This document shows positions 15,401 to 62,400 of a stretch of 64,000 nucleotides of DNA, one piece after another. The position numbers and the translations under genes are program-made. Below the pieces are notes generated by a model. That model searched no databases. It was not told where the DNA came from and worked only from the letters and a program-made list of their open reading frames with translations. Source of the stretch: Dillenia suffruticosa (taxonomy: Eukaryota > Streptophyta > Magnoliopsida > Dilleniales > Dilleniaceae); the NCBI GenBank assembly GCA_033439265.1, contig JAVTVX010000005.1, forward strand, positions 3,978,001-4,042,000. The letters run 5' to 3'. Position 1 is the stretch's first letter, and each line of letters starts with the position of its first letter.

Positions 15401-15686
15401 TCTCTCTCCTCATCTTCTTAGCTCCAAAATTTCTGCTCCTCAATCTCGACCTCTTCTTATCTTCTTCACTAAAATTCAACTTCTCCGTCGCCGGAGAACT
15501 CTCTTGGATCTTAAAGCTACTCGGTAAAGATCTCCGAGCCGACGGAAGCCGAGCGGCCTTCGAAGCCGGCCTCGGTGGCAACGCCGGCGGTGCATCCTTC
15601 GGCTTCTCGTCTCTCCGCCGCAGCGAATCCAGCATTTCTTCCAAGGAACTCTTTCCACTTTGCAGCGACATTGTCGATGACAACAT
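1726..15686 (-). CDS. Class VIII myosin heavy chain (24 exons, 1125 aa)
   Basis: Plant-specific actin motor; class VIII members act at plasmodesmata, cell plate and endosomes. Exons, 5' to 3' on the minus strand: 15686-15315, 14317-14216, 13954-13811, 13700-13550, 13440-13413, 13311-13143, 12959-12896, 12754-12741, 12635-12551, 11103-11000, 10918-10780, 10699-10596, 10521-10369, 10286-10197, 7221-7144, 7065-6907, 4956-4774, 4443-4238, 4150-4015, 3835-3706, 3427-3311, 3166-3144, 3015-2803, 2139-1726. They sum to 3378 nt with every junction in phase. The N-terminus ([23 protein letters not shown]) is class VIII-type. Then come an SH3-like segment (125-206), P-loop [10 protein letters not shown] (267-276), switch I NDNSSRF (316-322), switch [10 protein letters not shown] (535-542), weak IQ motifs (about 840-905), a coiled coil (918-988) and a basic tail ending KKWWGKKR. 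Oddities: the first IQ lacks its Arg/Gly positions, the fourth IQ is absent, and about 15-20 tail residues are missing against the Arabidopsis homologue as I recall it. The frame is open throughout, so probably a functional but fast-evolving copy. Confidence 0.9.
3144..3166 (-). other. 23-nt microexon of the myosin gene
   Basis: GAGGGAAAATGATTTCCATGAAG lies between a GCTGCAG acceptor and a GTAGTC donor. Together with one base of the previous exon it encodes GGKMISMK. It restores phase 0 for the DLPQENG exon, and sits where Arabidopsis class VIII myosin has AGRRISEDKD. Confidence 0.65.
5078..5160 (+). mobile_element. 5'-truncated SINE tail (Au-like) with target duplication
   Basis: The insert at about 5097-5142 (CCACAGTGGGATAAAGGCTT followed by four to five TTG units) resembles the 3' end of plant Au-type SINEs. 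It is bracketed by a direct repeat, ATCATGCATTGAAATTTGC at 5078-5096 and ATCATGCATTGAAATTTC at 5143-5160, as expected for a target-site duplication. It lies in the myosin intron between exons 16 and 17. Only the tail inserted. Confidence 0.7.
6408..6440. repeat. (CT)n microsatellite
   Basis: Perfect CT run inside a myosin intron. Confidence 0.9.
7222..10196 (-). other. Long myosin intron (about 3 kb) between exons 14 and 15
   Basis: This 2975-bp intron separates KLEQE-type exon 14 from exon 15. Open frames inside it are short and match nothing I recognise. It is AT-rich with poly(A)/poly(T) runs (for example 8540-8555 and 9339-9358) and no recognisable gene. Confidence 0.7.
12741..12754 (-). 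other. 14-nt microexon of the myosin gene
   Basis: ATCTGCCTGAAAAG sits between GTGGACAG and GTAAC. With the single T left over from the upstream exon it gives YLPEK. That bridges AKIQT and [14 protein letters not shown], as LLEKSRVV does in other class VIII motors. Skipping it would shift the frame. Confidence 0.75.
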
Positions 15687-28299: not shown

Positions 28300-28775
28300 T
28301 AATTTATTTATAAGGATGTTACGTCTCCATAAGACTTATAAAGGTGTTCTCACATTTCATGCTGAGCAACACTATGTGATAAATGCATCACAAAGCATGA
28401 CTAGAATATGGAATATTGACCTCCTCAAGTTATGGTTCTTCACTCTTTCTGTCATATGGTAAAATGCCATAACATTTTCTTCAAAATGGTGTGTTTGGCC
28501 ATTGGATGGTAATTGTTTACCTAAGGTAATTTGTTTAATATTTTTCACACGTACATATGATGCTGCAAACTGCTCCATTTATCTAGATTTACTTGACACT
28601 ATATCATATACATCTGATTCATGTATGTTCTTAATCGATTTCTTTGTGACTATTAACAGGAACCACCACAATACCCTATCAAGCTTGAGTTCTTGAACTC
28701 GAGGAATGGGTCAAATCCAACAATTCTTCCCCAGAATTACAGAAAGTAGGGCATGGGGTCTAAGATTTTAGTTTT
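28300..28775 (+). pseudogene. Truncated VAL-like B3 gene (5' leader joined to last exon)
   Basis: The stretch 28300-28360 matches the leader exon seen at 34144-34230 and 48388-48470. After unrelated sequence, 28560-28660 matches the last intron, and 28661 onward (GAACCACCACAATACCCTAT) matches exon 9 of the intact genes. The coding exons between are missing, including all zinc-finger and B3 exons. The last-exon copy keeps KLEFLNSRNGSNPT-like coding but diverges at its end (AGAAAGTAGGGC). It is a relic of internal deletion. Confidence 0.75.
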
Positions 28776-35639: not shown

Positions 35640-38600
35640 ATGGCTCCAATCAGAAGGTTCTGTCGCCAGTGCAAGGCCAAGACCTCAGACCTTAGGTCTG
35701 GTTGGCAGATGGAAAGCGGGGATTGTTTTCTTCTGTGCCAAAAGTGTAGGTAAGAAAAGGGTATTTGTTATTATGGTGTATATCATTTTTTATCAATATT
35801 TTTTTTTTTGAATTTTTCTTAGAATAATTTAAATGATGATTTGTTTTAGTGATTATTTTTCTTTTCCTTGTTGGTGGTGCCTATAGAGGATTTTCATTCG
35901 ATCATTTTAATCTATTTTATATCCAAAAGTTAAATAACTAATGATTACTAGTTTAATTTATAAAAACAAAAGTTAGTGTCAAAAATATCAATTCCTTGTG
36001 GAATTAGGTGAAGAGCCTCATACAAAATTTAGAACTTTGATTTTCATGTACCAAATTTAAAAGTCACGATTGTGAGTTGTACTCCATGAGATCATAGATC
36101 ATAGATTTTTATTTTTATTTTTATTTTTTTCCTTCTTCACTTTTTCTATGATCTATAAGTGATCTATTCCTGAAATGACTCTAAGAATATTTTAATTAAA
36201 AATTATTGTGATTTTGCTATAGATAGCGCAATAATTTGATATAAGTGCATAAGTTTAAAATAGAATTAACATGCAAAGTATAATGTCTTCTCTAGATATA
36301 AAAGTAATTTTCATAGTATGAAAACTATCGTGATCATTATACATGTATAAAATTAAAATTTTACCATTATACATTAAGTTATATCTTTTTATAAATAATA
36401 TATAATTCAGTATTTATAATTATTACATATTATATAATTTGTAAACGAGAAAAATTATGAGTGAAATGTAATTAAAAATAATTATTTTAAATATTTTGAA
36501 TAATTAGGAGATAAAATAAATTGGGGATGTTAGTATTGTTTATAAAAAAAAAGGGAAAAGTGCTCAAATTAGATAATTAGTTTAATGGGACTCGACTCGG
36601 CTAGACCTAAATCGTGTGGTGGAACTTTGAATTTGTTGTTCTTAAAGGAACAGTTTGATGGTCAGAATTCTCCTTCTTTAATTTTAAAATTTATTGTTCG
36701 AATTTTTGTGTAACAAAAAGAAAAAGAAAAAACTTTGAATTTGTTGAATCGGAAATTTTGAACATTCGTAGGCTTTGTTCAGTCTCGATAGTCTTTCACA
36801 GCAAACGAGGTTGGGCCTTAGAAATGCTTGATTCTCGGGCCCGTCCAAAAATTCACTTCTGTTCTTAATTGGGTTTTTCTACCAACGATCCAATAACCCT
36901 AAAATTATTGTTATCCATGGTTTAGAAAATTATAGAAAATCAGAAATAGAAGTATACTCATGATCATGACCGTTAAGAAGCCTGAATTCCCAAATTCTGG
37001 AATTTGGGAATTCGTCGCCGAATCCCTAATCATCGGAGATAATTTCGAGTATTTTGAGCATTTTGTCGGTTGTAAATTCAGAGTATTAAGTCTGATTGTT
37101 TCTTGCAATAAGGGTTTTTAATAGAAGTGACTTTGTCAATAGGGTTTGTGGTTTGTTTTGTGAATTTGGGGTGTTGTTGCTAAAAGAAAAGTTCCCTGAA
37201 TATAAATAAATAGTACCTTATTTGATTCTTGTTCTAGGTCCGGCACAAGAAGTAGTATAATTGCATTTGTTTATCTCAATGCTCTTTCATAGACCACTAC
37301 GTCATGAATATTCAAGAGCATTTTTACAATTTTCGTCTGGTGTCAGTCTGCTTAGTGACTGATGCCCTTCTTTGCAAATTCAAATCCAGTTCTGCCTATG
37401 AGGAAGGCAGATTTTGTCATGATTTTCACCAAGATCAGAACGGTTGGAAGCCCTGCATACTCTGTGGCAAGGTAAGGCAGAATGAGCCCTTTCTTTGGAG
37501 GTTGTCTTTGTCTTCTGACAATAAATATCTGATAAGCATATAACCATAATTCGATTCACGAGTAATAGTTGCTTTTCTACAGGAGCTCCACTCTGCATGT
37601 GCAGCGTCATGCCATCTCATGGTGCCATTTGATAATGGCGACGTGGCATGCATCGACTGCTGCAAGGATTCTGGAGAAATGGTGAGAACAGACCATCCAG
37701 CCTTCTATATATTTAATGCAAATCCATGTTGAACAGTATTATATTCTTTGGTTGATTCTAGATCATGCTATATTCCCCACTGCTAGCTGGCAAGGGACAT
37801 GAACTCCCTAAGCAGAGTAGCAGCAACTAGACATTTAACAGTACCTACGAGGCATAACTAGACATTTAACAGTACCTACGAGGCACAACTAGACATTTAA
37901 CAGTACCTACGAGGCATATACAAAAAAGTTATGGAAACAAAAGGTCTCGATATTCAAACATCCTTGGCAAATTTTCCTCTTTTTTTTATAGGTAGTTTTT
38001 GTTCCTTTTTTTCCCCCTTTTCTCAACTTAATCTGTTAAAAAATATAACCATTTTAATAAGAGTTAAATATTATGTTCAATGCTTAATTTAGCAGTATTA
38101 TCATAATCAAAAGTACTTTAGGGTTTCAAAAACATTGGGTTGTTGTCGTAATACTTTGGAAGTATCTTTTCCATTTAATTCAAAACCTTTGTATGTATAT
38201 ATAACTATCTTAGCTAATCAGCCATTTACACTGACTAAGAATTAAATTATTCGTTGACCCAAAAACTTTAATTTCTTAAATGAGGAAAGCAACCGACATC
38301 TATATTAATAACAACTATGTGAAGCATCACTTGGATATTGACATCAATGAGTAGATAGGAATTGAATATGTTCTGTATAGTATGATGTTGGCAAAAGGAA
38401 GGCAAAACTAATTAGCTAAAGATTTACAGGTGGAACTTGACACGGCTCAACCTCAAGCTTATTCAAGAATTCCCAAGGAAGGTGAGTCTTCTAATCGTGC
38501 AACCAGAAAGAGAAAGTCTTCAGGTAATGGTCCTTTTCCCCTTCCCTTGAAGAGAAATTAGTGAATAAGAACTTGATCATTCAAGTTGGACTTTTTGGCA

Positions 38601-40955
38601 TCTAAAACTCTGTGCCTCTTCTTAAACATGAGATGCTTTCTTTTCAACGTGAATGGTGATCTCTTGCAAAGTGCCAGGTCATTCCGTTGTATAGGAGAAT
38701 GTTATTTATATAGCATAATATAATAAATTGTACTATTCATAGGAAAATAATAACAGGCAAGATTTCTGAGTCTATTCTTGGCACCCACATTGCAGCGATC
38801 TTCTCCAGGGCTGTTAGGCCTCCTCAACGTCGACAATGTGAAGAACAGTCAAGTGAGGAGTTACGTGGGAAAGGGGTTAGATCCGGTGTGGAAGAAATAG
38901 TTGAGATCGATCCGCCTGCAAATCCTGTTGCACGGATCATTATACCGTATAACAACTGGCCAAAGATAAGCGATGAAAATCTGGAGAGAATTCCAAGAAA
39001 GTATCCTTTCTTGTCATCCTCATCATTTACCTGAAATGAAAATTTTTGTTTTTTATATTTATTTGACTAAATTGCTATCATGCTTTGGTAAGACAAAGAC
39101 TGCCCTGAAACAAAGTGCATTATCTTCCAAGTTATTTATCAGCATCTTATGATCTTTGATCCTTAACCATGTCCAAGCTATAATTCTTTCATCGTTCCTT
39201 TGTTCGAGAAAAGACTGAATCATGAGGATGCCAGCACCGAACTTGGGCGCATATTGTTGCCTAAAATCTGCGCAGAGGTGAGTCCATATCGTGCTTGTTT
39301 GATCATTGAAATTTTGTTTGCACAACCAAGTAGCAAGGTAAACATAAACTGTGATTCAAGACCATGGTCTATAAAATGAAACTTAGCTTTAGTACTTTTA
39401 ACACCTCCCAGGAAAGTCTCTGTGTCCAGAGATCATATCACTGATGGATGTCAGTTCATGTTGTGCTGTGTAGCTTCAGAAATATTGGATGTTTGTCTTT
39501 CATGTAAAGGGGAGTGTCATAAGATCGCTCGTGTTGAAAGCTGAAACTTAGTCAATATAGTAACTATGTTCCCTGATCATGTATACAGTCTTTCCTTAGT
39601 TGGCAATCATGTTTAGATGGAATAGATGAATGGGCAGATACCCTAATTTTTCTGTTTCTATAGGTCAGGAAAACAGTTTGTTCGGGCACATGCACTTGTT
39701 CAGTATTTCTCTCTGGACCGTCTTTGGTCAATTCCCAGTTTAGACTTGTGGTCCAAGCTTAAATGATAAAAGTTAATTATTTTGTGTTGAAGAGGATAGT
39801 TTTGACCTCTTAAATTTACCTCTAACCACATTTCTTGGTGATTCTGCTGCATAATGTTCCAGAAGGTATTCTTACCTCTATGAATTGGACAAAATGTTTA
39901 GGTCTCTGTGAACTGCTAAGTATAGATTGAAAATATGTACACTGATGTGCATCTGTATTGGAACAGGCTTATTTCCCGAGGGTTACTGGGCCACATGGAG
40001 TTTTCATACATGCACATGATATGGAAGGCAGAGAGCATTTGCTTAACTACCATGTCTCAACTTATCATGGTGTAAAAGATTATTCTCTCACAGGCCTTGA
40101 AGATTACATGCAAGCGATGCATGTGGAAGCTGGAGACACAGGTAAATATACAATAATTTTCATTTCAGTAAGTGTTTTTATTGTCTTGAATATCAAATTA
40201 GGGAAGTTTTGGTTACACTTTAGATTCATGCCACACGTTACATTTTTCAATACCCGTTAACCTTTGTCTTTGTTTCTTTTCCCTAATAATTCCACCACGC
40301 TAGTCTATCATCTTGAATTGTCTTCTGCACTAGTTAATAATTTGATTAATTATTTTTTTAACACCTTTAGCAATCCATTATTCCTCTACGTTGTTTTTTG
40401 TTCTTCGGTTTCTCTCTCTGTTTCTTTTTTTTTTTATTGGTCGGGAGGGAGGGGCGTATGTCTTTATGCTTGCACCATCTTGTGAGTCTTAATTTCATTT
40501 TCTGGTTTAGGTATATAATGAACATTGCTTATGGAATTTATGACGTCTCTGTTTTTTTTCCTTGTTTTTTCTTCAGTTACATTTTGTTGCATGCAACCAG
40601 AAGGTACTCTGGTCCTTGTGAGGAGAAAGGCTTCTGCCGCCAAACCATCTTATAAGGTGTGGTAAACATTGTAACTGTAATTCTTTAGTTTAATGGTATT
40701 GAGCCCTTTATTATTCATCAACTTACAATAGCCGGTGCCTCACTGGATCTTTTGATTGTAAACTGCTCTATTTATGTAAGTTTACTTGACACTATATCAT
40801 ATATCTAATTTATGTATGTTATTAATGAATTTCTCTGAAACTATTAACAGGAACCGCCACAATACCCCATCAAGCTTGAGTTCCTGAACTCAAGGAATGG
40901 GTCAAGTCCAACAGATTCTTCTCCAGAATTACAGCAACTAGAGGGTGGCATCTAG
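35640..40955 (+). CDS. Short VAL/HSI2-like B3 protein, copy A (9 exons, 337 aa)
   Basis: Predicted nuclear DNA/chromatin-binding protein related to the VAL (HSI2) B3 repressors. Exons: 35640-35749, 37390-37471, 37583-37681, 38430-38523, 38796-39000, 39214-39277, 39967-40141, 40577-40656, 40851-40955. They sum to 1014 nt with all phases joining. Residues 8-97 form the VAL PHD-like zinc domain: C8-C11, C33-C36, C46, C59-C62, H67-C70, C87-C90, including SAYEEGRFC and GWKPCILCGK. A basic stretch RATRKRKSS (about 120-128) could be a nuclear signal. Residues about 187-296 form the B3 domain: ELGRILLPKICAEAYFP, DMEGREHLLNYHV, MHVEAGDTVTFCCMQPEG, LVLVRRKA. No CW domain or EAR motif is seen, and the length is under half that of typical VAL proteins. 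The WPNNNSRMY segment of VAL B3 is replaced by STYHGVKDY. An AG just before GGTCTTCTCTGC suggests a spliced leader upstream. All frames are open. Confidence 0.85.
37824..37917 (+). repeat. 30-bp minisatellite, three copies, in intron 3 of gene A
   Basis: The unit ACTAGACATTTAACAGTACC plus TACGAGGCA(T/C)A repeats three times nearly perfectly. Gene B has one diverged copy at the same place (about 52503-52531), so the array expanded in A after duplication. Confidence 0.85.
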
Positions 40956-41724
40956 GGTTTTAGTTTTTACAGGATAATCTTCTATTAATTGATATATCAA
41001 GTGGTTTGCTAAACCTGGGTGTGCTTGGCTTGGCCTTATTGATATCAAATGTTGATTCCTTTTTGTGTTCTCATTGAAAATTATTGAATGTATCTCTTGC
41101 TATATAATTTGTACATTATTTGCTGACATAAAAATGTGATATTATTTTTTTTTGAAATGAGTATACTTTTTTGTTTTCTGCCATAATTTTTATATATTTA
41201 AGATGGTTCTATTGTTGAAATGAAAGCAGAGAAGGCGCATTGCTAACTAATGCAAAAGATACCAAAATTTCATTGATTAAATACTGGTTTTGATGTAGCC
41301 CGAGTTTGTTGGTTGAAAAATTGTACAACATATGTTTGCAATTTGACGTGTTTTGTCTTTTTAACTCCTTGTTTGAAATTCAAAAATTATTCTTTTTTTT
41401 TTTGTACGGATTGATAAGTTTAGAGGGGGTAGAGGTTATTGAGCCAGATGTTTTCCACTGAAGATTTTGTTAAATACAAAAATAGTAGGAGTCTTATGTC
41501 ATTATCCTTGTCAAGTATCATTATTAGAAGTTATTATTCCTCAGTATATATCGTATAAAATTATGAGATATTAAAAATTGAAGTGTCATTTGAATTTAAA
41601 TTTGGAGAGTGGACATGATTTTTTCTCCCCAATTTTCCCTAAGAATCCAAACGGAGTCACTGCCCATTTATCGAATCAGCCTCAGACTAACCCAAGGGGA
41701 AAACTTAAACATGAATAAAGTAGT
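40956..41724. other. 3' flank of VAL-like gene A
   Basis: Homologous to the flanks after 28776 and 55166. No gene is seen. It ends at the 5-bp target duplication of the inverted-arm element. Confidence 0.6.
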
Positions 41725-41729
41725 GAAAC

Positions 41730-43786
41730 TGTTGGTTTTATATGCACATACACATGCGGAAGCGTGTAAAATTTTTGGAATCATAAAAAGTTAGGGTTTT
41801 CGGGCATACCTCAAAGAGTAGATTGCAAAACTCGGGGAATCACGAACTTCGATCAATCGACCTCGCCGTCGGGATGATAACCACGAAAGTCGAGCTATCA
41901 CCGCAGTACCACGACACCGCAATCAAAATCCGGTGACACAAATTCTCTTCGCAGAATTTTTCTCCCTCTCTCTCAATTGTCTCCTCACAATTTTTTGTGC
42001 AATCGTTAGAATGATTGTGCCTCCTAGGGTTTTCCCTAGTTTCCATATCCTCCGTCACCACAAATGGTAGGGAATTCAAATCCCATAAGTTACCATTTGT
42101 GCATATAGAAAGTGGGATAATTTCCTTTTTCCAAATATGGAAAGATGACCCACGTGGGCATTCATTCCTTCATTACCGTGACGTTACCCATGTCACGTAG
42201 ATCTCAAATACAATTAATATAATTTTTTCTGAATTTTTGGAGCATGTTTAAGCCATGAAAATTGAAGTTGAAGTTTTCGGCCCTAAGGGTGCCCAAAACT
42301 TAAAAACCTAGATCTATCCGTGTAGAGGGATTGTTGATCTAAATAAATGGCATATTTGTGTTCCATGTGCATTGCTCTACGTTTTGACATGCATTTTGCA
42401 TTGATTGGTTGCCGGAAACTGGGATTTCCGGCAAGGTCGCGGAGGGCCAAAATTTGGATATAAGATTTGCCGTGTTTAGGGCTTGAATCTTTCAAAGAAA
42501 ATGGTTCGAAATATTTTTGGGAAGTCCAAATATATTTTTCGGCAGAAACCGTCGTAAAAAAATTAGCCGGAAATGGGTTTTCGGAGAATCGGGTCGAAAA
42601 ACCCGTTGCAGGACCCGTCGGGCGAAGAAGAACCGGCCCAGACCCGCGGGCGCGTGACACGCACGCGCCAGAAGGCGCGTCCAACAGGCGCTTGTAGTGC
42701 ACGCGCCACAGAGGCACGTGAAGCGGGGGCACGTGGCGGTCGGGTCGGACCCTGACCCGGTGATCTATTCATGATTCTCGTTCCCACTGTGTGAGACCCG
42801 AGATCCATTGGGTGGGATCTCTAGTACCCTTATTTTACTTTCGACTGTCTTTAAAAGTCTTGATTCAGTGTTTGCTACTTTAGTCTGTTTACCTATGGTC
42901 TGGAAGATAAATTGAGGTCTAAGGGGTAGGTCTAGGAAAGCAGCTGAATTGAGATCGATGGATTCGAATTTGGAAAAGGAAGACCAATCTACATTACATC
43001 GTTGTGTTGTATTCACCGACCGGTCTTTACGTATATCCACGTTGGAATACGAACGTAATAGTGAATACACATTCGAGGATATATTGGGGATGACTTTCGA
43101 TGAGGAAAGTGACTCGAAGGATGTAAATGTGATGAATCTGGGGTACAGCGAGATATTTGTTTTTATTATTAACGGCGACTCCTCGAATATCCTAACAGGT
43201 GCATCGAGAAGCCTTTATTTGCAAGTGTACTCGCCAGTCGCACAATACTCAATCTAGTATGAAAATCCAGAAGGGTGATACAGGAGATCGCATGAGCTGT
43301 GATCTCGTGAAGGATGAAAATGTCCTCGTGTGCAAGTGGGAGATGAAGGAATGAATGCCCGCGTGGGGCATCTTTCCATATTTGGAAAAAGGAAATTATC
43401 ACACTTTTCATATGCACAAATGGTAACTTATGGGATTTGAATTCCCTACCATTTGTGGTGACGGAGGATATGGAAACTAGGGAAAACCCTAGGAGGCACA
43501 ATCATTCTAACGATTGCACAAAAAATTGTGAGGAGACAATTGAGAGAGAGGGAGAAAAATTCTGCGAAGAGGATTTGTGTCACCGGATTTCGATTGCGGT
43601 GTCGTGGTACTACGGTGATAGCTCGATTTTAGTGATTATCATCCCAACGGCGAGGTCGATTGATCGAAGTTCGTGATTCCCTGAGTTTTGCAATCTACTC
43701 TTTGAGGTATGCCCGAAAACCTTAACCTTTTATGATTCCGAAAATTTTGTACGCTTCCGTATGTGTGTGTGCATATAAATCCAACA
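41730..43786. mobile_element. Fossil element with about 445-bp inverted arms, TG...CA ends and 5-bp target duplication
   Basis: It starts TGTTGGTTTTATATGCACAT and ends in the reverse complement GCATATAAATCCAACA. The arms (41730 to about 42173, and about 43343-43786) are inverted, near-identical copies. GAAAC flanks both sides (41725-41729 and 43787-43791). The paralogous site near 30205 is empty and reads TCAAACCTATGC. TG...CA ends with a 5-bp duplication are typical of LTR retroelements, but here the long repeats are inverted rather than direct. The 1.17-kb core is GC-rich at 42.56-42.76 kb and I recognise no protein in it. It is a relic that inserted after the segmental duplication. Confidence 0.7.
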
Positions 43787-43791
43787 GAAAC

Positions 43792-45120
43792 CCATGCCAT
43801 GGACTTGGGGTTTGTTACACGTCAAAACCATAAAACCTGAAGAACAAGCAAAGCTGTAGGGGAAAACCTTAAATTTTATTTGAACAAGAAGTCTACATTG
43901 CAAGTCTTAACAAGCTCTTAAATACCTAAAACAAACCATCTAGAATAGGAAGAAACGAATCTAAAAGCTGATGAATAATTGAAAATAGAAAATAAATTAG
44001 CTCGGGATTGCAGTTGCCATAGGGCCGCGATGAAGAACGTCCCTGGGTGCTCTAGGAAAGGAGGGTGCAAGAGCGCCGGTGGCTTGGAAGTCTGAATGTG
44101 GCGCAAGTGCGACGGACACTTGACTTGCTTAGATAAAAATAAGTGGAGACTCCTCATTGAGAAAATATTTGGAATTCATCAGTCCAAAACCCTGCTCAAC
44201 ACAGAAATTTCAAAAGGATGTATCAAATTACAAAAAGGACACAACAAACTTAATAGATTTGTTTTGTTATGCAAAGAATAGATCAGAAAGGGGTCGAAAC
44301 GGGTACACCCATCATGACACGACCCGTTTCAATCTGATACTTTAATTTGCCATTAGCAGGCATTCTCTTAAACAAGTTGTGGACATGGACACGATCAAAC
44401 CTCACTGAAATCAACAAAATTTGCAGAAAGCAACAAACTTCATACATCAAAGAAAAAGAAATGCATTGAAACGAAGCAGTTGTGAACCACAAAGCTAAAT
44501 GAAGTTACTCAAATATCGATTCCCAAGGACGTTGTCATCTTCTCCACTTCCAAGTACTGTGGAGCAAGGGAGGACTGAAGAGTTTCAAAATGAGACTGCC
44601 GCTAAAATTGTTGAACATCCCAGCAATTGGAAATTTCTAGTCTCTTCATGCGTGAATCCCCTAACAATCTTTGCTGATTTCCCGCCCAAAATTCACCACT
44701 TGGAATTCTCATAAAAGCCGTAAGAGCTTCAGCTTCTTCTGGGTTTGATCTCAATTGGTCCTCAATTGTCTTCTCCGTTCCTTCATATGAAGCTGCGAAC
44801 TCTACCATTAGCCGCTGTTATGGTGGTGGAATGGTGGCCAATACGGCGGACATCACTTTATTGTGTAAGATAGCGATGAAGTTGAAGCAGATGGAGAGGA
44901 AGAAGAGAGGGAACGTACGAATGAAGTTTTTCTCGTTCCAAATAGTGCCGTGATCGTTGCATGCCTTTTATTTATTTATTTATTTATTTTTTGGGTTACA
45001 CGAGATTTGGGGAGAGGATTGGCAGTTAGCACCAGCAATCTGTCCCGTTGGGACTTTCTTGTCTTTTAATATTTTACAAGAGGCTGAGACCCTACCAGGA
45101 GGAGCTTCATGGCTTGAACA
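43792..45120 (-). repeat. Second copy of the 30.2-31.5 kb segment
   Basis: CCATGGACTTGGGGTTTGTT, GGGATTGCAGTTGCCATAGG and AGTGCGACGGACACTT recur here from 30213, 30420 and 30545 in the same order and orientation. This continues through the broken small gene to TTTGGGGAGAGGATTGGC. It shows that the duplicated unit includes this segment as well as the B3 gene. Confidence 0.8.
44509..44853 (-). pseudogene. Broken copy 2 of the unidentified small gene
   Basis: Paralogue of 30952-31287 in the same orientation. ATG at 44853 gives MSAVLATIPPP then a stop. The same frame continues QRLMVEFAASYEGTEK, EALTAFMRIPSGEFWAGN and NCWDVQQF, then meets a second stop where copy 1 has Trp. Downstream sequence keeps RQSHFETLQSSLAPQY in frame to TGA at 44509. 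The first stop is shared by both copies and the second is private to this one. Confidence 0.55.
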
Positions 45121-45194
45121 TGTTTGGGCTTTTGTTAAACATGATTTGAACGAAGTGATATTAATTATTTCTTCCTTATTTTCAGATCCGATTA

Positions 45195-45395
45195 ATTTAA
45201 TCTGAATATTTTTTTTATATTATATCAATCGGTATCCAAAATTATATTATGATTAATCTAATCAGAGATTTACAATGACTCATTTAAGAGGGCTATCCTC
45301 CCAATATAATTTGTTTTATATCTAAATCGCGAATCAAACTCTTAACTTTAGTTAAAGAACCTAACGCCATCTAACCTAAGTATTATGTGTCCTGT
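45195..45395 (-). mobile_element. SINE copy (dispersed family), minus strand
   Basis: On the minus strand it reads GGTTAGATGGCGTTAGGTTC, a TTTAACTAAAGTTAAGAGTT region, ATTATATTGGGAGGATAGCC and AATCTCTGATTAGATTAATC. This matches the family's head and body order. It is absent from the matching site at about 31.64 kb. Confidence 0.5.
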
Positions 45396-47109
45396 TACGG
45401 TACTAATTCTTCTAAATTCTTTTTCTCTATACCTAAATCTCGAATTCGAGACTTTTAGTTAAAGGAATAAAATATCCGATCGTTCCACCCAAATAAATTT
45501 GGTGTGATGTTAATTTTTGTAATCAACTTTTTTGAAAACTTTTAACATTACATTGGAGTATGAGTATTTTCATTTATTTATATTATTCAATACTATATTT
45601 TAATTATATTATTTTTCATGAATTTTTAAAAATATAGTTTTGGCGGTGAAAAAACTTCTAGCACCCTTTTCGGCAGAGAAGCGGTGGAGGACGAGATGGG
45701 ACGACAATAGCGACACAAGAAACAAATTTAGGTGAGAAATAAGATTTAATTTAACTGAGTACAAGTTTCTCAAATTTATTTAAAAAACGCTCTCTTCTTA
45801 AATAAATAATGTGATAAAATAATTTATATAAATTTTAATATTTAATTTATTTAGTATTATTATTGTAAAAAAAGATATTCGTGGCTAAAAGCAATAAAAT
45901 TGCCTTTTGTTCTACGTTGGAATGTGCCCCTAGATATATAAGGTACCGCCACGTTTTGTCCCAATTATAGCTTTGATGGTTAGCATAAATTCGGGATTAT
46001 TATTTATTGAAATTTAAATATGTTGATAATTTATATTGTAATTTTATTTTAGATGGAGATTGGAAATTTTTGCTTGATTGTTTTAGAGCGATGAAAAGTT
46101 GATTTAATGGAAAAAATGTTAAATTTTTCGATCAAAACTCGGATTTGAGTTTTGAGAATAGAAAAAATTATATTGAGATAGCTCTTCTAATAATTCAAAT
46201 TGAATTAGTTAAATTATAATTCTGAATACTTGTTTTAGCAATGTTCCCTTGGATTTGGAGTAGTAATTCTCATGCATTTCACCACTTAAAGACAAATGGA
46301 TGTAAAGGGAGAGTTCATAGGTGATGAGGAGGCAATTTAATCAATTATATAGTCAATAGATATGAATGTTATTAATACCGTTGAAGAGTTCATTGATGTC
46401 TACCTTGTCTCCTCCATTAGTTACTTATTTAAGCTTGAGGCAAAATGCTTGTAATAAACACAAAACAAGATATTTTGATGACCTATAGCTTGATGGGTTC
46501 TTGAATTTGGCAAATTCAACCCACAGTTTGACATGGAAAATAAATGCAAAAACTGTCATAAGTTATTATTCCTAATAATGGGAATTTAAAATTTTACAAA
46601 TGAAGCATAATTAATTTTTTTAATTCATAGGAGAGATTCGAATTCAAAACGAAAAAGATGATATTAGCTGAACTATCTCTCAATGGCATATAATTAATTT
46701 TCTTTAGGTGATCGAGTTCTTAAGAGGTTGGATATATTATTGAATAAAAGATTTTGCATTAAAATGATTGATGGGTAGAAAATTTATTACAAATTTGTTA
46801 TTCGTTATATAAATTTAAAATTCACATATAAAGGAAATGTTTTTCTTTTTTTCTTTTGAAGTTTAAAGGAGAATTAAAGCTGAGATTTTTTTCACAATAG
46901 GTTTAAATGAGGCATTGTATGAATCTAAAGTCATTTTCTTTGTCAAGTACAGTTTTGTTAGAATTTGTTGTCCCATGGTATGATTGTGATGAGGCTTGGT
47001 ATAGGGTAAAATGTGATATAAAGATTAATGAGATATATAATGAAGGGGTAAAAGTGTTTCCAAATATGGGGTAGGTCACCCATTTTAAGGATTATTTTAT
47101 TGAGTAAAA

Positions 47110-47885
47110 TTTAAATCTGTATTTTTAGTAAGACAAATATTAGAATTAATGCATTCGAAAAAATAAATCTGAATTAAATTGATTTTTAAAGAGAGAAAAA
47201 TTAGATTTAGATTTTTTAAATAGAGAAAATTTAAAGCCAATATGTTTAAAAATATAAAATTTTAATTTTTTTAGAAGAAAAAATTAACGTATTTGGTTTT
47301 AGAGAGAGAAAAAATAAATTTCATATTTTTAGAAAGAAAAAACTTAAAATTAATGTGTTTAAAGAGAAAAAAATATAAATCAAATTAATTTTTTGAGAGA
47401 AAAAAGTTGATGCACTTAGTTTTAAAGAAAAAACTCGAAACAAATGTGAATATGAATCAAAATAATTTCTTAGAGACAGAAAATTCATTTTCTTAATTTG
47501 GAGAGATAACTAAATTTTTTAGAGAGAAAACTTAAAATTATTGTATTTAGAGAGATACGATATGAATTAAATTAATTTTTTAGAGAGTTAAAAGTAATGT
47601 GTTAAATTTTAGAGAGACAAGGATCGAATTTAGGTTTTCTAAAAAGAGAAATTTAAAATTAGTGTCCATAGAGACAAAATAAAAATTAAAACTTTTTGAA
47701 AGAGAGAATACTAAATATGCTTAATTTTAGAAAGAGAAAAATAAAATATAAATTTTTAGAGAGGAAATACTTGAAAGTCATTGTATTGTGTTTAGAGAGA
47801 AAATATGAATTAAGTTCACTTTTAGAGAGATAAAATTTCAAATCAATGCATTTAGAGAGACAAATTAGTGTTTATACATTGTAAT
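47110..47885 (+). repeat. Degenerate GAGA array upstream of VAL-like gene B
   Basis: Words such as GGTTTTAGAGAGAGAAAAAA, TTTTTAGAGAGTTAAAAG and TTTAGAGAGACAAATTAGTG, homologous to the arrays in the other two units. Confidence 0.75.
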
Positions 47886-48719
47886 TAATATAATAAATCA
47901 TTTTTTAAAATATCTTGTCATTATCATTGTTTTCTCTTATACTTCTTCTTTGCTCTTAAAGAAATTTTCCTATTAGAGTTGATGCAAAATATCATTTATA
48001 TAAAATATGATAACCCTAATCAGCATCATTTTCTACGTGCGCCGCAGAATTAAGCAAATACATTACTTTTTTCTCACCTAACTTCGCCCTTTATAAAGTT
48101 GAAACCTAGTATTTTTTCTTCCTTCAATTATTGTGGCTTAGGCAAAAACCGAAAAATTTAGTTTTCTCAGTCTTGATTGTCATCGTCTCACCGGCAAGTA
48201 TGGCGAGAGTTTAATTTCTAAAGGTTTGGGTTTTTTTTTTTCATCTTTTTTAAACAATTTCTACTCTATTTTATTTCATGTTGAATTAGTTTATCAATTG
48301 TTTTATATTAAGTTATTTTGCCATTAGTTAGATTATATTACATTATAATCTTAAAATTAAAATAATAAAATGAGTTTGATTTTTCAGGTTATTTCAATTT
48401 TTGATATGCTACAAGGTTTGTCATGTCTCCGTAAGGCTTATGAAGGTGTTTTCTCATGTGAACCAGATATATCGGTAAAAATCTCAACTATTAAAACAAT
48501 CTAAATCTTCTATTCAAATATCTTATAATGAAAATCTTTTTTTTTCCTCATTGCTTATATCTCAAAATAATTCATCAATTCAAATATTAATTGCTCCTTT
48601 GAATTTATCATTTATAGAGTAATTAAAGGCAAGTAAACATCCCCTAAACCTTTTTTTTTTCCCTTAGAACCTCCGCTATGACGAATTTTTATCCCTCTTC
48701 ATTCTCACATAAATATGTA

Positions 48720-48721
<2 letters not shown>

Positions 48722-48755
<34 letters not shown>
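48722..48755. repeat. (CT)n microsatellite
   Basis: About 17 CT units. The paralogous site at 34474-34493 has a shorter run. Confidence 0.9.
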
Positions 48756-48758
<3 letters not shown>

Positions 48759-50361
48759 CTTTTTGTATGTTTGATTAATTTATCAATATTTTCTTTACTT
48801 AATAGATTAATGGATTAAACGTTGGAGAGTAAAACAATTTTTGGGCAATCAGGGCTTAATTTAGTTTTTTATTTGTTTTTTTGGTTTAATGAATTAAAGT
48901 GGAAGCAGACATTTATTTTTTGACTTCAATAATTATATTTGTTTATTTTATCATATATGTATTTAGGTTAGAAATAATAAATTTCTTGAAATCCGTTTAT
49001 AATGAGATGATAAGCTTTTTCACATAATACTTTAAATTCTAAAATGAGATTATTAGATTTTATGCTTATTAATTAATTTGTTAAATCTTTCGAGATTAAA
49101 GATGCTACGATATATCAATTAGGAAAAAAAAAAGTATTTTTTTGAGACAAGAAAAATATTGTTTATTAGGCATTCGGACTGTTACAAAATTGTACTTTAT
49201 CATTTTATTTTTAAATTCTATACACGAGGCATAGAATTTTTTCCCTGTAAACCTAAAACAGTATGATTGTAATGAATCATTTTTCCGTAGTGTGAATCTT
49301 ATTAAACTTTGTGGTATAGAAAATTTAAAAATGTAAAATTAAATTTTGCATATAGACTTATGATATATATACACTTAGCTTTGAGTTTGACTATACTAAT
49401 TTGCTGATTTTTGTTGGTTGAAATTTAAAGATTTTGATAATTTATATTAAATTTTTTTTTTTTTTTTAAGGAGGGCTGCAATTATTTTTGCTTTTTAAGA
49501 CTTGTTTCAGCAATTCTACCTTGGATTTAGTGTTGTAATTTTCTCACCTTCTACCACTTGGAGACGGCAAATGGATGTAAAGGGAGAGTGCAATGTTAGG
49601 ATCTGTAATGAGGAGGAGAGGAGGTAATTTAATTAACAGCTTAGTCAATTAGTGATAATATATTTATTACAACTCTTGAAGGGTTAATTAATATTAAACT
49701 AGTTTGTTTATATCATCCCTTCCGTAAAATGTTTTATTTTAATCGGAGGAGAAGTGATAGTAATAGATTTATAAAATATTTGGATATACCTATGTTTGAT
49801 GGATTCTAGAAATAAAATTCATAATCCTAAAAATATAACAAATTTTTTTCCGTAAAAGCATCAAGTCTATTTTTTTATATATAAATTATCAGTATTTGGT
49901 AATTATATTGAATTTGAATAAATTTGTTTTAAATTGGGTTGGATTTGAGGGTCAAAACCCTCCCATTGTTTGTTTTCTTCAAAGTATCAATGTCCATAGG
50001 TTCATGCTTGGTTTTTCCTAAAATTGCCCTGACCTAACACCTCTTTTTTTTTTTTCCCCCGAGAGAGAAAAAGAAATTTGGTTGGTTAAATTTTTGAAAG
50101 TTTCACCTTTATACATTGAACCCACTCCCAAATATTGACAATTAAATAATCTCCGGTGATTATATTAAGATCCTCCAGATATGGCCTAATTAATTATTGA
50201 CTTAATTTGTTAAAAATCTTTATTTCTCTTTTTGGTAGCCAAGACACCTCTCATTATACATTGTTATTAATGTGATTAATCATTTTTTAAAGGTTCTGCT
50301 TATTCTTTCAATCATTTTCATTGTTTCTCCAAAACTTCTTCAGGGTCTTTTCTGCACTCCA

Positions 50362-53300
50362 ATGGCTCCAATCAGAAGGTTCTGTCGTCAGTGCAAGGCC
50401 AAGACCTCAGTCCTTAGGTCTGGTTGGCAGATGGAAACCGGGGATTGTTTTCTTCTGTGCCAAAAGTGTAGGTAAGAAAAGGGTATTTGTTATTATGGTG
50501 TGTATCATTTTTTTATCAATGTTTTTTTTTTTATAAAAGTAAAATAAATATAGTTCACAAAAGTTAGTGTCATAAATATCAAATCCTTATGGAATTCGGT
50601 GAAAAGCCTAATACAAAATTTAGAACTTTAATTCTCATGTACCAAATTTAAGAGTCACAATTGTGAGTTGTATTCTATGAGATCATGGATCATAGATTTT
50701 TATTTTTTGTCCTTCTTCACTTTTTCTATGATCTATGAATGATTTATTTCTGAAATGACTGTCAGAATATTTTAATTAAAAATTATATTTTCTTGTGACT
50801 TTACTATAGATAACGCAATAATTTGATAGAAGTATAAAAGTTTAAAATAGAATTAAAATGCAAAGCATAATATCTTCTCTAGATATAAAAGTAATTTTCA
50901 TAGGATGAAAACTGTTATGATCATTATTTTAAATATTTTGAATAATTAGGAGATAAAATAAATTGGGGATGTTTGTATTGTTTATCAGAAAAAAGGAAAA
51001 ATGCCCAAATTAGATAATTAGTCTAATGGGACTCAACTGGGCTAGACCTAAATCGTGTGGTGGAAATTTGAATTTGTTGGATTGGAGATTTTGAACATTC
51101 ATAGGCTTAGTTCTGTCTCGGTTGTCTTTCACAGCAAAGGAGGTTGGGCCTTAAAAATGCTTGATTCTCGGGCCCGTCCAAACATTCACTCCTGTTCTTA
51201 ATTGGATTTACAGAGGTCTTGAATTCCAACGTGCCTCGAAAATGGCAAAAAATTAAAAATAAAAATTTGGAGAGCCGACCTCTAAAATAGATTTTCAGTA
51301 TTCGAATCGAATTAATCAGATAAAAATCAAATAACGTAAAACGAAAAAAAAAAAAAAAAATCAGAAGTAGAGGTACACTCGTGATCATGACCGTTAAGAA
51401 GCCTGAATTCACATTTGGGAGGTCGTCGTTGAATCCCTAATCAACGGGAATAATTTCGAGTATTTTGAACATTTAGTTGGTTGTGAATTCAGAGTATTAA
51501 CTCTGATTGTTTCTTACAATAAGGGTTTTTAGTAGAAATGATTTTGTCAATAGGGTTTGTGGTTTCTTTTGTGAATTTGGGTTGAATTATTGATAGTTAT
51601 GGATGAAACCCTAGAAAGTTAATTATGATTTTAAATGAGGGATTATTTTAAGGAGTTAGAAATATGGATTTGAGAGAGCAGAAAAGGGGGGAAGGGGGGG
51701 AAGGGGGGGGGGAGAGAGAGAGAGAGAGAGAGAGAAGTATTTTGGGGGCACTATTATTTTCCTTCCATACAAGAGCGGTTATGTGATTTTTTTTCCCATG
51801 CATCTTCTTGATTGATATTTTTTTTGGGGGGTGGGGGAGGCTGAAATCTTCTCGGTGTTGTTCCTAAAAGATAAGTTCCCTGAATATGAATAAATAGTAC
51901 CTTATTTGATTCTTGTTCTAGGTCCGGCACAAGAAGTAATATAATTGCATTTGTTTATCTCAATGCTCTTTCTTATGTCATGAATATTCAAGAGCATTTT
52001 TACAATTTTCGTCTGTTGTCAGTATGCTTAGTGACTGATGCCCTTCTTTGCAAATTCAAATCCAGTTCTGCCTATGAGGAAGGCAGATTTTGTCATGATT
52101 TTCACCAAGATCAGAGTGGTTGGAAGCCCTGCATACTCTGTGGCAAGGTAAGGCAGAAGGAGCCCTTTCTTTGGAGGTTGTCTTTGTCATCTGACAATAA
52201 ATATCTGATAAGCATATAATCATAATTGGATTCACGAGTAATAGTTGCTTTTCTACAGGAGCTCCACTCTGCATGTGCAGCGTCATGCCATCTCATGGTG
52301 CCATTTGATAATGGCGACGTGGCATGCATCGACTGCTGCAAGGATTCTGGAGAAATGGTGAGAACAGACCATCCAGCCTTCTATATATTTAAAGCAAATC
52401 CATGTTGAACAGTATCATATGCTTTGGTTTACTCTAGATCATGCTATATTCCCCATTGCTTGCTGGCAAGGGACATGTACCCCCTAAGCAGAGTAGCAGC
52501 AAGTAGACATTATACGGTACCTACCAGGCATATACAAAAAAGTTTTGGAAACAAAAGGTCCCGATATTCAAACATCCGTAGCAAATTTGCCTGTTTTTTT
52601 TTTTTGTTTTTTTATAGGTAGTTTTTGTTCCTTTTTTTCCTCCTTTTCTCAACTTAATCTGTTAAAAAATGTAACCATTTTAATAAGAGTTAAATATTTT
52701 GTTTAATGCTTAATTTAGCAGTATTATCATAATCAAAAGTACAATAGGGTTTCAAAAACATTGGGTTGTTGTCGTAATACTTTGGAAGTATCTTTTCGAT
52801 TTCAAAACCTTTGTATGTATATATAACTATCTTAGCTAATCAGCCATTTACACTGCTAAGAATGAAATTATTCTTTGACCCAAAAACTTTGATTTCTTAA
52901 ATGAGGAAAGCTACCAAAATCTATATTAATAACAACTATGTGAAGCATCACTTGGACATTGACGTCAATGAGTAGGTAGGAATTGAATATGTTCTGTATA
53001 GTATGATGTTGGCAAAAGGAAGGCAAAACTAATTAGCTAATGATTTACAGGTGGAACTTGACAAGGCTCAACCTCAAGCTTATTCAAGCATTCCCAAGGA
53101 AGGTGAGCCTTCTAATCGTGCAACCAGAAAGAGAAAGTCTTCAGGTAATGGTCCTTTTCCCTTCCCTTCAAGAGAAATTAGTGAATAAGCACTTGATCAT
53201 TCAAGTTGGACTTTTTGGCATCTAAAACTCTGTGCCTCTTCTTAAACATGATATGCTTTCTTTTCAAGGTGAATGGTGATCTCTTGCAAGGTGCCAGGTC

Positions 53301-55165
53301 ATTCCATTGTATAGGAGAATGTTGTTTATATAGCATAATATAATAAATTGTACTATTCATTGGAAAATAATAGCATGCAAGATTACTGAGTCTATTCTTG
53401 GCACCCACATTGCAGCGATCTTCTCCAGGGCTGTTAGGCCTCCTCAACGTCAACAATGCGAAGAGCAGTCAAGTGAGGACTTACTTGGGAAAGGGGTTAG
53501 ATCCGATGTGGAAGAAATAGTTGAGATCGATCCCCCTGCAAATCCTGTCGCCCGGATCATTATACCGTATAACAACTGGCCAAAGATAAGTGATGAAAAT
53601 CTGGAGAGAATTCCAAGAAAGTATCCTTTCTTATCATCCTCATCATTTACCTGAAATGATTTTTTTTATATATATTTATTTGACTAAATTGCTATCATGC
53701 TTTGGTAACATGAATACAGCCCTGAAACAAAGTGCTTTGTCTTCCAAGTTATTTATCAGCATCTTATGATCTTTGATCCTTAACCATGTCCAAGCTATAA
53801 TTCTTTCATCGTTCCTTTGTTCGAGAAAAGACTGAATCATGAGGATGCCAGCACCGAACTTGGGCGCATATTGTTGCCTAAAATCTGTGCAGAGGTGAGT
53901 CCATATCGTTCTTGTTTGAACATTGAAATTTTGTTTGCACAACCAAGTAGCAAGGTAAACATAAACTGTGATTCAAGACCATGGTCTATAAAATGAAACT
54001 TTGTTCATGGCTAATAGCTTTAGTACTTTTAACACCTCCCAGGAAATTCTCTGTCCAGAGATCATATCACTGATGGATGTCAGTTCATCTTGTGCTGCGT
54101 CCTGACATGTATACTTTCGTCCTTAGTTGGCAATCATGTTCAGATGGAATAGATGAATGGGCAGATACCCTAATTTTTCTGTTTATATAGTTCAGGAAAA
54201 CAGTTTCTTTGGGCACATGCACTTGTTCAGTATTTCTCTCAATTTGGACCGTCTTTGGTCAATTCCCAGTGCAGACTTGTAGTCCATGCTTAAATGATAA
54301 GAGTAAATTCTTTTGTGTTGAAGAGGATGGTTTTAACCTCTTAAATTTACCTCTAACTACACTTCTTGGTGATTCTGCTACATAATGTTCCAGAAGGTCC
54401 TCTTACCTCTATGAATTGGACAAACATTTTAGGTCTCTGTGAACTGCTAAGTAGGGGTTTGAAAATATGTACACTGATGTGCACCTGTATTGGAACAGGC
54501 TTATTTCCCGAGGGTTACTGGGCCGCAAGGACTTTTCATACATGCACATGATATGGAAGGCAGAGAGCATTTGCTTAACTACCATGTCTCAACTTGTCAT
54601 GGTGTAAAAGATTATTCTCTCACAGGCCTTGAAGATTACATGCAAGCGATGCATGTGGAAGCTGGAGACACAGGTAAATATACAATAATTTTCATCTCAG
54701 TAAGTGTCTTTATTATCTTGAATGTCAGGGAAGTTTTGGTTACACCTTAAGTCATGGTACACATTACATTTTTCAATACCTGTTAACCTTTGTCTTTGTT
54801 TCTTCAGTTACATTTTGTTGCATGCAACCAGAAGGTACTCTGGTCCTTGTGAGGAGAAAGGCTTCTGCAGCCAAACCATCTTATAAGGTGTGGTAAACAT
54901 TATAACAGTAATTCTTTAGTTTAATGGAATTGAGAGCTTTATTATTCATCAACTTACAATAGCCGATGCCTCACTGGATCATCTAATTGTAAACTGTTCT
55001 ATTTATATAGGTTTACTCGATACTATATCATATATCTAATCTATGTATGTTCTTAATGGATTTCTCTGTAACTATTAACAGGAACCGCCACAATACCCCA
55101 TCAAGCTTGAGTTCCTGAACTCAAGGAATGGGTCAAATCCAACAGATTCTTCTCCAGAATTATAG
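50362..55165 (+). CDS. Short VAL/HSI2-like B3 protein, copy B (9 exons, 330 aa)
   Basis: Intact paralogue of copy A. Exons: 50362-50471, 52066-52147, 52259-52357, 53051-53144, 53416-53620, 53831-53894, 54499-54673, 54808-54887, 55082-55165. All exon lengths equal those of A except the last, where an earlier TAG removes seven residues (A ends ELQQLEGGI, B ends SSPEL). The zinc-binding Cys/His set and the B3 core are unchanged. Protein differences are few, roughly a dozen; examples are D17V, S26T, T102K and R110S. They mostly fall outside the zinc ligands, with several in the linker around residues 102-165. Intron 7 is about 275 bp shorter than in A. Same likely role as A; whether both are expressed cannot be told from sequence. 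Confidence 0.85.
51710..51735. repeat. (GA)n microsatellite after a G-rich run
   Basis: GGGGAAGGGGGGGAAGGGGG is followed by about 12 GA units, in intron 1 of gene B. Gene A lacks this insert in its corresponding intron. Confidence 0.85.
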
Positions 55166-60348: not shown

Positions 60349-62400
60349 TTATTTTTCTTCTTCTTCTTCTACTTCTTGTCCATCATCTTCCGAGACCTTC
60401 ATGATTCGTTGCATTCTTTTTTCTGCATCCTTCCAATTTTTAATACAAATTAAGGTTTCTAAAGTATCGTTCGCTAAATTTGTACGTTTCTCGGTTAACA
60501 CTCGACCACCTGCACTAAAAACACTTTCCGATAGCACTATGGATACCGGAGGGGTTAGTACATCTTTAGTCACTTGAACCAAAATTGGATAATACGATAC
60601 ATTATTTTTCCACAAACCTAATATATCATATAAATCAGTATTATCAGAACCTTCTAATGTAGGTGTTTGTTTATATAAAAGTAATTTATTAAATGATGAC
60701 GAAATTTTTTGTTTTTTTCCTAACATGTGTAAGGGATTAAATGAAAATGAAAATGATTGAGTGGTATTACTACTACTACTACCTACATTATTAGTATTTA
60801 AATTATTTTTTTCCTTTTCATATAGTTCAAATATTGTTTGTAAAGTAAAAAATATTTGTTGTTTTAAAAAATGTGGGTTAATAAATAGATCTGATGGAAA
60901 AACTTGTACAAAACAATCAATTAATATTTCAACACCTTCAACTTTAACACGTGGATCTAATGCACTTACGACTAAATATAAAATTGGAATTTTTTCATAA
61001 TATTTTAAAAATTTTGTTTTCATAAAAAAAACAATTTCACCAAATCTTTTTTCATTTTCAAATTCATTAAATATATAAATAATTTTACAAAGATTTGATA
61101 ATATTAAATGAATAGTTCGATAATAATATCCGGATAATAAATTTGTATATAAATGAAATATTTTCAATAATTTATTAAGTGTATATACAAAATCGAAAGC
61201 GTTATTATCGATAAAACTATATTCGTAATTTGAATTTGTAAATTCAATTAAAATATTTTGAAAAAGAAATACACCTTGTAATATGTCATATGTTGAATTC
61301 CACTTAATGTCATATTTCATTTTAAATTTTTTATATTGTTTATTATATAACAAACATAATTATCTAATTTTTTGGGTTTTTACAGAAAAATTTCTTATTT
61401 GATGAATTAAATCCCAAATAGATTTTAAAAATAATTCTCCCATTGCTAAACCATTCTTAACACATAAATTAATTATATGACATGCATATCTAACATGAAA
61501 AAAAAGTTTCATTTAAAATTATATTTAAAGAATTTTTTAAACTATTAATTATAGTTGTATTAGCCGAAATATTATCAAATGAAATAGAAAAAATTTTATC
61601 ATTTATTCCATAGTCATAAATAATATTTGAAATTATTCTAGCTATATGTGCACCGAAATGTAGAAATTCCCAACGTTGAAAAACTAAAATTCTTTTTTTT
61701 AAAAACCATGAATTATTTATCCAATGATATGTTACTAAAATATAATATTCTTTTTTATATTCATTTTTCCAACTATCCGAAATTAATAAAAATTTACAAT
61801 CACTAGTTATAAATTGTGTAATTATATCATTTTTTAATTCTTAATATCTATCTAATGATCTCCTTCTACCGGATCTTCTACTATTTTTTTTATAACCGGA
61901 TTGTAAATATTTTTGTACATATTCTTCAAATACGGGACATGTAACTATGTTAAGTGGTAATTCTTTTCTTGCTAACCATTTTATTTGTCCAATTTTTTCT
62001 TTATCCGAATTATATTTAAATATATCAGTTATATTATCTTCTCTTGTACCAATTTGTATTTGTTTTGTTTGTGATAATTTTCTAAATGATTATTAACTAA
62101 GTGTTTTCTAAGTGTGATTACCCCCCAACCCTTCAAAAATTTATATTTTTGATGACAAATTTTACAAATTGATTTTTGTTTTTCATGTTTTTTCTCAAAA
62201 AATGTCCATATATTAATATCATCTTTTTTAGTTCGTGTTGTATTAGATTCTGTATTACTAGATTCAGTTTTTTCGAAAAGAACTTCAATATCTATATTAT
62301 CGTGAATTTCATTTTGAAAAAAAATGGAGGCATAGGAGATTGTTGAGAAGATTGTGAAAAGTGTATTCCGACCATTTTATTAAAAATTTAAGAATAAATT
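60349..62400 (-). pseudogene. Decayed hAT transposase
   Basis: Cut-and-paste transposase, minus strand. Near 62230-62050 a BED zinc finger reads FFEKKHEKQKSICKICHQKY then LRKHLVNNH, giving the C-x2-C and H-x4-H ligands. Near 61610-61510 comes SFDNISANTTIINSLKN, then FHVRYACHIINLCVKNGLAM after a frameshift at a T run (about 61500). An in-frame TAA lies just before the longest open stretch (61353-60349, 334 codons), which holds YLVVSALDPRVKVEGVE and the C-terminal dimerisation block PPVSIVLSESVFSAGGRVLT with NLANDTLETLICIKNW. With at least one stop and one shift the copy cannot make full-length enzyme, although its ends look intact enough to be moved in trans. Confidence 0.8.

Follow-up and report, generated by a model that had tools for sequence, protein, structure and literature searches.

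Short VAL-derived genes with a rebuilt B3 C-arm in Dillenia suffruticosa

A tandem pair of short VAL-like genes and its homeolog

VAL proteins help set when Polycomb shuts off seed genes and flowering repressors. We describe here short genes of Dillenia suffruticosa that, as judged from sequence, derive from VAL genes: the part after the B3 domain (the CW domain and the Zn/EAR block) is gone, the B3 face that reads the RY element is rebuilt, and the other B3 sequence is kept together with the PHD-like zinc domain. Two of them lie in tandem in the window, the whole 64,000-nucleotide (nt) stretch of DNA that was analyzed (positions 3,978,001 to 4,042,000 of JAVTVX010000005.1, forward strand; assembly GCA_033439265.1). 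The window is part of contig C5 of the genome, which spans 596 Mb in 37 contigs.

A preliminary description of this DNA had proposed two intact short VAL-like B3 genes between window positions 35640 and 55165, and our splice models bear this out. Copy A (35640–40955) and copy B (50362–55165) are nine-exon genes on the plus strand with open frames of 337 and 330 amino acids (aa), respectively. All of their introns are GT-AG and their exon phases are identical; position 35640 is the start of copy A and position 55165 the end of the TAG stop codon of copy B. The two copies differ at 26 of 1014 nt across the nine exons, with a replacement divergence (dN) of 0.018 and a silent divergence (dS) of 0.053. 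The earlier argument that shared phases point to function does not stand by itself at a silent divergence of only 5%; the case from open copies is strengthened instead by the homeolog described below and by dN/dS.

The first three exons of copy A encode the PHD-like domain, which begins in exon 1 (35640–35749; CRQC...LCQKC) and continues through exon 2 (37390–37471; SSAYEEGRFCHDFH...CILCGK), matched by the zf_VAL1_N profile (PF25813), and exon 3 (37583–37681; ELHSACAAS...CIDCC), also supported by Pfam. Exon 1 has homologous exons in copy B and in the homeolog. A linker follows, with a basic patch (RKRK) in exon 4 (38430–38523), homologous to an exon of the homeolog, and an end in exon 5 (38796–39000; PYNNWPKISDENLERIPRK) that weakly resembles the canonical PRYWPRITDQELQQ. 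The B3 domain spans the N-arm side in exon 6 (39214–39277; ELGRILLPKICAE), the replaced C-arm in exon 7 (39967–40141; HLLNYHVSTYHGVKDYSLTG, from alignment) and the C-terminal strand in exon 8 (40577–40656; VTFCCMQPEGTLVLVRRKAS). Exon 9 (40851–40955) encodes the tail and the stop. In copy B, exons 1 to 5 lie at 50362–50471, 52066–52147, 52259–52357, 53051–53144 and 53416–53620; they are followed by the B3 exons 6 (N-arm side, 53831–53894), 7 (replaced C-arm, 54499–54673; STCHGVKDYSLTG) and 8 (C-terminal strand, 54808–54887), and by exon 9 (55082–55165). The tail is not conserved, since copy B stops 7 residues before the end of copy A (Q331*) and the homeolog 21 residues before it. The end of intron 1 and exon 2 are 97% identical between the copies over 300 nt (37298–37597 versus 51974–52273), and this end of intron 1 contains an ATG in frame with exon 2, a possible alternative first exon without CRQC/LCQKC.

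We also identified a third intact short gene on contig C2 (C2:1951449–1958200, minus strand, 316 aa) with the same nine exons, phases and GT-AG introns. A sequence that flanks the cluster in the window (15294–15686) has its sole other match at C2:1983457, and C2 and C5 are therefore a pair of duplicated segments. A search of the whole genome with exon 7 DNA (E ≤ 10) returned three matches, which were copies A and B and the C2 gene; further copies elsewhere thus found no support, although far more diverged ones could escape this search.

VAL ancestry and absence of the CW and EAR modules

Six canonical VAL genes of the same genome (two on C10 and one each on C12, C31, C13 and C35), read in pieces, served as controls. 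The VAL ancestry proposed earlier for the short genes is supported. The whole proteins pass the PF25813 cut-off of 27 bits (51.5 bits for copy A and 52.1 for copy B). In phmmer searches, the copy A B3 domain matched Arabidopsis VAL1 (E = 1e-17) well ahead of FUS3 (1e-4) and LEC2 (0.002). The general B3 profile (PF02362) scored 22.2 bits in copy A and 23.3 in copy B, under its curated cut-off of 30.1. Two B3 exon boundaries with GT/AG introns (AE|AYFP and GDT|VTF) are common to the short genes and all six canonical VALs. Another boundary in the short genes, CGK|xLHC, is found in four of the six (as CGK|RLHC), the C10 pair not being settled at this position. On this comparison, the B3 of the short genes is a diverged VAL B3. 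The preliminary description had every zinc ligand of the PHD-like domain kept. The cysteines and histidines are indeed there, although in the first pair a CX2C spacing (CRQC) takes the place of the CX4C (CMNxxC) of all six canonical VALs, and the middle cysteine of HCGC is a serine (HSAC).

Phylogenies set the short genes apart. A tree of the concatenated PHD-like domain, linker and B3 (9 rows) united the three of them in one clade (100/100) separate from the six VALs. In a B3 tree (12 rows, midpoint-rooted, with FUS3 and LEC2 as the only outside rows), they grouped with the VALs rather than with FUS3 or LEC2 (100/100), but this placement is tentative given their long stem (1.82 changes per column); the branch to the C5 pair measures 0.14 and the tips 0.012–0.018. 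The long stem and short branches imply that the short genes changed greatly before the duplication and only slightly afterward. Among the rows used, which leave full-length clades of other plants outside, the three copies form a separate small clade that has a long stem and predates the C5/C2 duplication.

The absence of CW and EAR regions noted earlier was upheld in searches for hidden downstream exons, for which the six canonical VALs were positive controls. The CW profile (PF07496) had 17 matches in the genome and was present downstream of the B3 in 6/6 canonical VALs; at E ≤ 1, no match fell on C2 or C5. A motif scan found the Zn/EAR block (CxCxVC...DLNxxP) in 6/6 canonical VALs. The same block was not found near copies A and B (28000–64000, plus strand) or around the C2 gene (19.9 kb, C2:1938000–1957900, minus strand), where only isolated short chance matches occurred.

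Replacement of the B3 C-arm

LAV proteins carry the C-arm motif WPNNKSR, and differences in specificity have been ascribed to this loop (PMC9391945). The canonical C-arm, a 14-residue sequence, was present in the B3 exon of 6/6 canonical VALs, whereas WPNN[NK]SR is missing from the B3 of all three short genes. The altered arm pointed out in the preliminary description is a substitution in register: 20 canonical arm residues are replaced by HLLNYHVSTYHGVKDYSLTG in copy A, and copy B has a single arm change relative to it (Y251C). We compared the short genes to the columns invariant in seven VAL B3 rows (six from the same genome and one from Arabidopsis), using a hand-anchored alignment from which one inserted short-gene residue was dropped. 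Copy A keeps 35 of the 73 invariant columns, and the losses concentrate in the segment covering strand 4, the C-arm and strand 5 (3/17 kept versus 32/56 elsewhere; Fisher p = 0.005). Each of the three copies keeps 3/17 in this segment, with 31/56 elsewhere in the C2 gene. The copies agree with one another at 16 of the 20 columns of the arm segment. They retain GRxLLPK on the N-arm side, as well as much of the remaining B3 sequence.

The alteration extends beyond residues that contact bases. In all structures discussed in the available text of PMC8136769, B3 position 66 has a positive side chain that contacts the DNA backbone; in our alignment, this residue is an arginine in VAL1 and a histidine in the short genes. 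Furthermore, the net charge of the B3 is −3, −3 and −4 in the short genes, whereas the seven VAL rows range from +3 to +5. The preliminary description had raised recognition of a different DNA site. The loss of the arm residues, the backbone-touching positive residue and the net positive charge leaves that proposal less supported, and a new specificity is no more likely than a loss of DNA binding. Its other proposal, that the proteins may bind chromatin yet not repress as VAL does, is a further candidate. With the arm replaced, the charge flipped and the constraint on the B3 much weaker (see below), the short B3 is unlikely to read the RY element by the known LAV mode.

We also considered a compensated frameshift as the origin of the arm and found no clear support for it. 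Exon 7 nucleotides can be aligned gap-free to the canonical exons. Identity in register over the 60 nt of the arm was 0.33–0.38 against three canonical exons, and a shifted frame was better only once (C35, 0.42 at −1).

Selection on the short genes

Copy A and the C2 gene differ by a dN of 0.122 and a dS of 0.321, a dN/dS of 0.38 (Fisher p = 4e-7); copies A and B have a ratio of 0.34 (p = 0.009). No coding gap separates copy A from the C2 gene over 316 codons, whereas the introns have 55 gaps over 4178 aligned nt, a density that predicts about 12 gaps in the coding part. In a neutral simulation (substitution only, at a rate of 0.16 per site, no indels), each lineage acquired a mean of 5.5 stops and the frame stayed open in 0.35% of 2000 runs (P(none) = 0.0035). 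The dN/dS values, the rarity of open frames under neutrality and the missing coding gaps indicate that the short genes have evolved as proteins under moderate purifying selection since the C5/C2 duplication. Three open copies with these properties also disfavor a pseudogene reading.

The constraint differs between parts of the protein. Between copy A and the C2 gene, dN/dS was 0.29 in the PHD-like domain, 0.43 in the linker and 0.43 in the B3 (p = 0.03). Canonical homeolog pairs had ratios of 0.05, 0 and 0.09 in the B3 and of 0.12, 0.11 and 0.24 in the PHD-like domain. Hence, B3 constraint in the short genes is some 5 to 9 times weaker than in two canonical pairs, the third having zero replacements, and the PHD-like ratio is near that of one canonical pair (0.24). 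The B3 has the highest protein identity between copy A and the C2 gene (85%, compared to 73% for the PHD-like domain and 67% for the linker), and its silent divergence is the lowest too (0.17). The high identity is thus partly not due to selection on the protein, and we do not take it as a sign that the arm is under special selection.

Possible roles of the short proteins

Work on Arabidopsis supports separable functions for the VAL domains. Dimerization of HSI2 and HSL1 (VAL1 and VAL2) needs the PHD-like domain and not the B3, and repression of DOG1 can dispense with the CW and EAR regions (PMC7383879). The CW domain binds SNL co-repressors (PMC9266683), and the linker plus CW binds VIN3 (PMC7615239). 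Because the short proteins keep the PHD-like domain, lack CW and EAR and have a rebuilt B3 face, the expectation is that they would pair with VALs but bring in neither a further RY contact nor these co-repressors. The short B3 would no longer recognize CATGCA/TGCATG in the LAV mode, and its binding to DNA is probably weak or nil. With less certainty, the short protein may enter the nucleus and join full-length VALs through its PHD-like dimerization domain. Such a heterodimer could have a single reading head and a single set of co-repressor surfaces, and VAL silencing could thereby be weakened or moved from paired to single RY sites. The short proteins may, then, modulate the normal silencers and not act as silencers in their own right. 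We favor this whole reading, of short VALs with a rebuilt B3 and little or no DNA binding that tune full-length VALs via PHD-like dimerization, but only tentatively. Its more specific form, in which the genes are natural antagonists or tuners of Polycomb-linked VAL silencing, kept for dimerization and turning two-headed RY readers into one-headed ones, we regard as doubtful.

Several observations weigh against the tuning reading. An HSI2 protein with a mutated B3 still dimerizes, yet DOG1 stayed at the hsi2-2 level when it was expressed in hsi2-2 plants, and the dominant-negative rise in DOG1 came with a mutated PHD-like domain (PMC7383879). The PHD-like domain of the short genes is itself diverged, including its CX2C first pair, and its choice of partner is only predicted. 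Net charge alone decides little because the FUS3 B3 is neutral (0 by the same count, with +2 for the LEC2 stretch). The selection signal in the B3, at a dN/dS of 0.43 and a silent divergence of 0.17, is weak on its own.

The conserved parts of the B3 could mean that it still binds DNA at a new sequence, making the short protein a stand-alone reader without the repression module. The retained N-arm side and other B3 sequence, the B3 being the best-conserved part between copy A and the C2 gene, and the shared arm segment (16/20 columns) are all consistent with such a reader, as is the variation in C-arm motif and target site among B3 subfamilies (PMC9391945). We nonetheless think it unlikely, given the reversed charge, the loss of arginine, asparagine and tryptophan from the arm and of the backbone-contacting arginine, and a B3 conservation that is not protein-specific, silent and replacement divergence both being low. 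The same shared arm segment could instead suit a protein-binding module, such as a dock for LHP1 or PRC2, acting on chromatin without contacting DNA. The isolated B3 of HSI2 and that of HSL1 each suffice for LHP1 interaction in bimolecular fluorescence complementation (PMC7383879); the LHP1-binding surface of the B3 is unmapped in the texts available, and we consider a dock the least probable of the explanations weighed here.

The relaxed B3 constraint also suits slowly decaying duplicates, that is, VAL copies without CW and EAR that are heading toward pseudogenes. The inward shift of the stops in copy B and the C2 gene fits this course. So does a gutted third tandem copy in the window, overlooked in the preliminary description, of which only the last exon is left (28660–28749, plus strand; 91% identity over 22 aa in tblastn) and exons 1–8 were not found. 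Two genes that adjoin the C2 gene (C2:1957901–1977700) add to this picture: they keep PHD-like exons 1–3, with a more canonical HCGC, and a B3 was looked for there and not found. Against decay stand the three full copies, all open over a dS of 0.32 without a coding gap and with dN/dS below 1 (p = 4e-7). Decay strikes us as somewhat less probable than the reading of a new site.

Dimerization, RY reading and co-repressor docking have been separated in Arabidopsis by means of laboratory mutants. Evolution seemingly made the same separation in D. suffruticosa, leaving three copies whose relative ages are known alongside six canonical VALs. Should the short proteins form pairs with full-length VALs, they would offer a direct test of the need for two reading heads in VAL silencing. 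Should they instead recognize a new site, they would exemplify the re-specification of a nearly invariant B3 arm.

Related genes and neighboring features

The short genes resemble VAL1/HSI2, VAL2/HSL1 and VAL3/HSL2 (LAV family, VAL subgroup) in their PHD-like zinc domain and B3 exon boundaries, but differ in having no CW or Zn/EAR block, a replaced WPNNNSR motif, a reversed B3 charge and a length of only 316–337 aa. Arabidopsis VAL3 is in a sense their opposite, as it lacks an intact PHD domain (PMC9266683). VAL-type B3 proteins without zf-CW have been reported in grape (VvVAL3), poplar (PagVAL3-A1) and Aquilaria (AsLAV3). AsLAV3 falls outside both the VAL and the AFL cluster and is annotated with one exon, unlike the nine-exon short genes. 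The available accounts of these three proteins, compared here by description only and with no orthology implied, do not report a replaced C-arm. Longan has two short VAL-like proteins with neighboring gene numbers, DlVAL3-like (131 aa) and DlVAL2-like (220 aa), which together are about the size of copy A; possibly, and this is a guess, they are one split gene model. In the available longan account, zf-CW is named only for DlAVL1-3. CW-less VAL-like genes are thus already in print, and the replaced C-arm appears to be the new part: our search of the literature on VAL and B3 proteins found no VAL-type protein described with one in the texts available.

The PF25813 profile had 26 exon-level matches in the genome at E ≤ 1, and the six canonical VALs were read starting from these. 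In a tree of the PHD-like domain alone (11 rows), the short genes group with the two C2 neighbors (99/97), which are possible PHD-only VAL derivatives. More PHD-like matches lie at C9:12674950–12692303 and C31:14441422; by eye they resemble the VALc type, some with broken frames, and a B3 was not detected in the stretches fetched.

Between copies A and B, the window holds an inverted repeat (41729–43787) with arms of 445 nt that are 95% complementary and spaced by 1169 nt, probably a transposable element. The product of a long open reading frame on the minus strand (60349–61353) is similar to a hAT-type transposase, and that of an open reading frame at 569–1171 to a chlorophyll a/b-binding protein.

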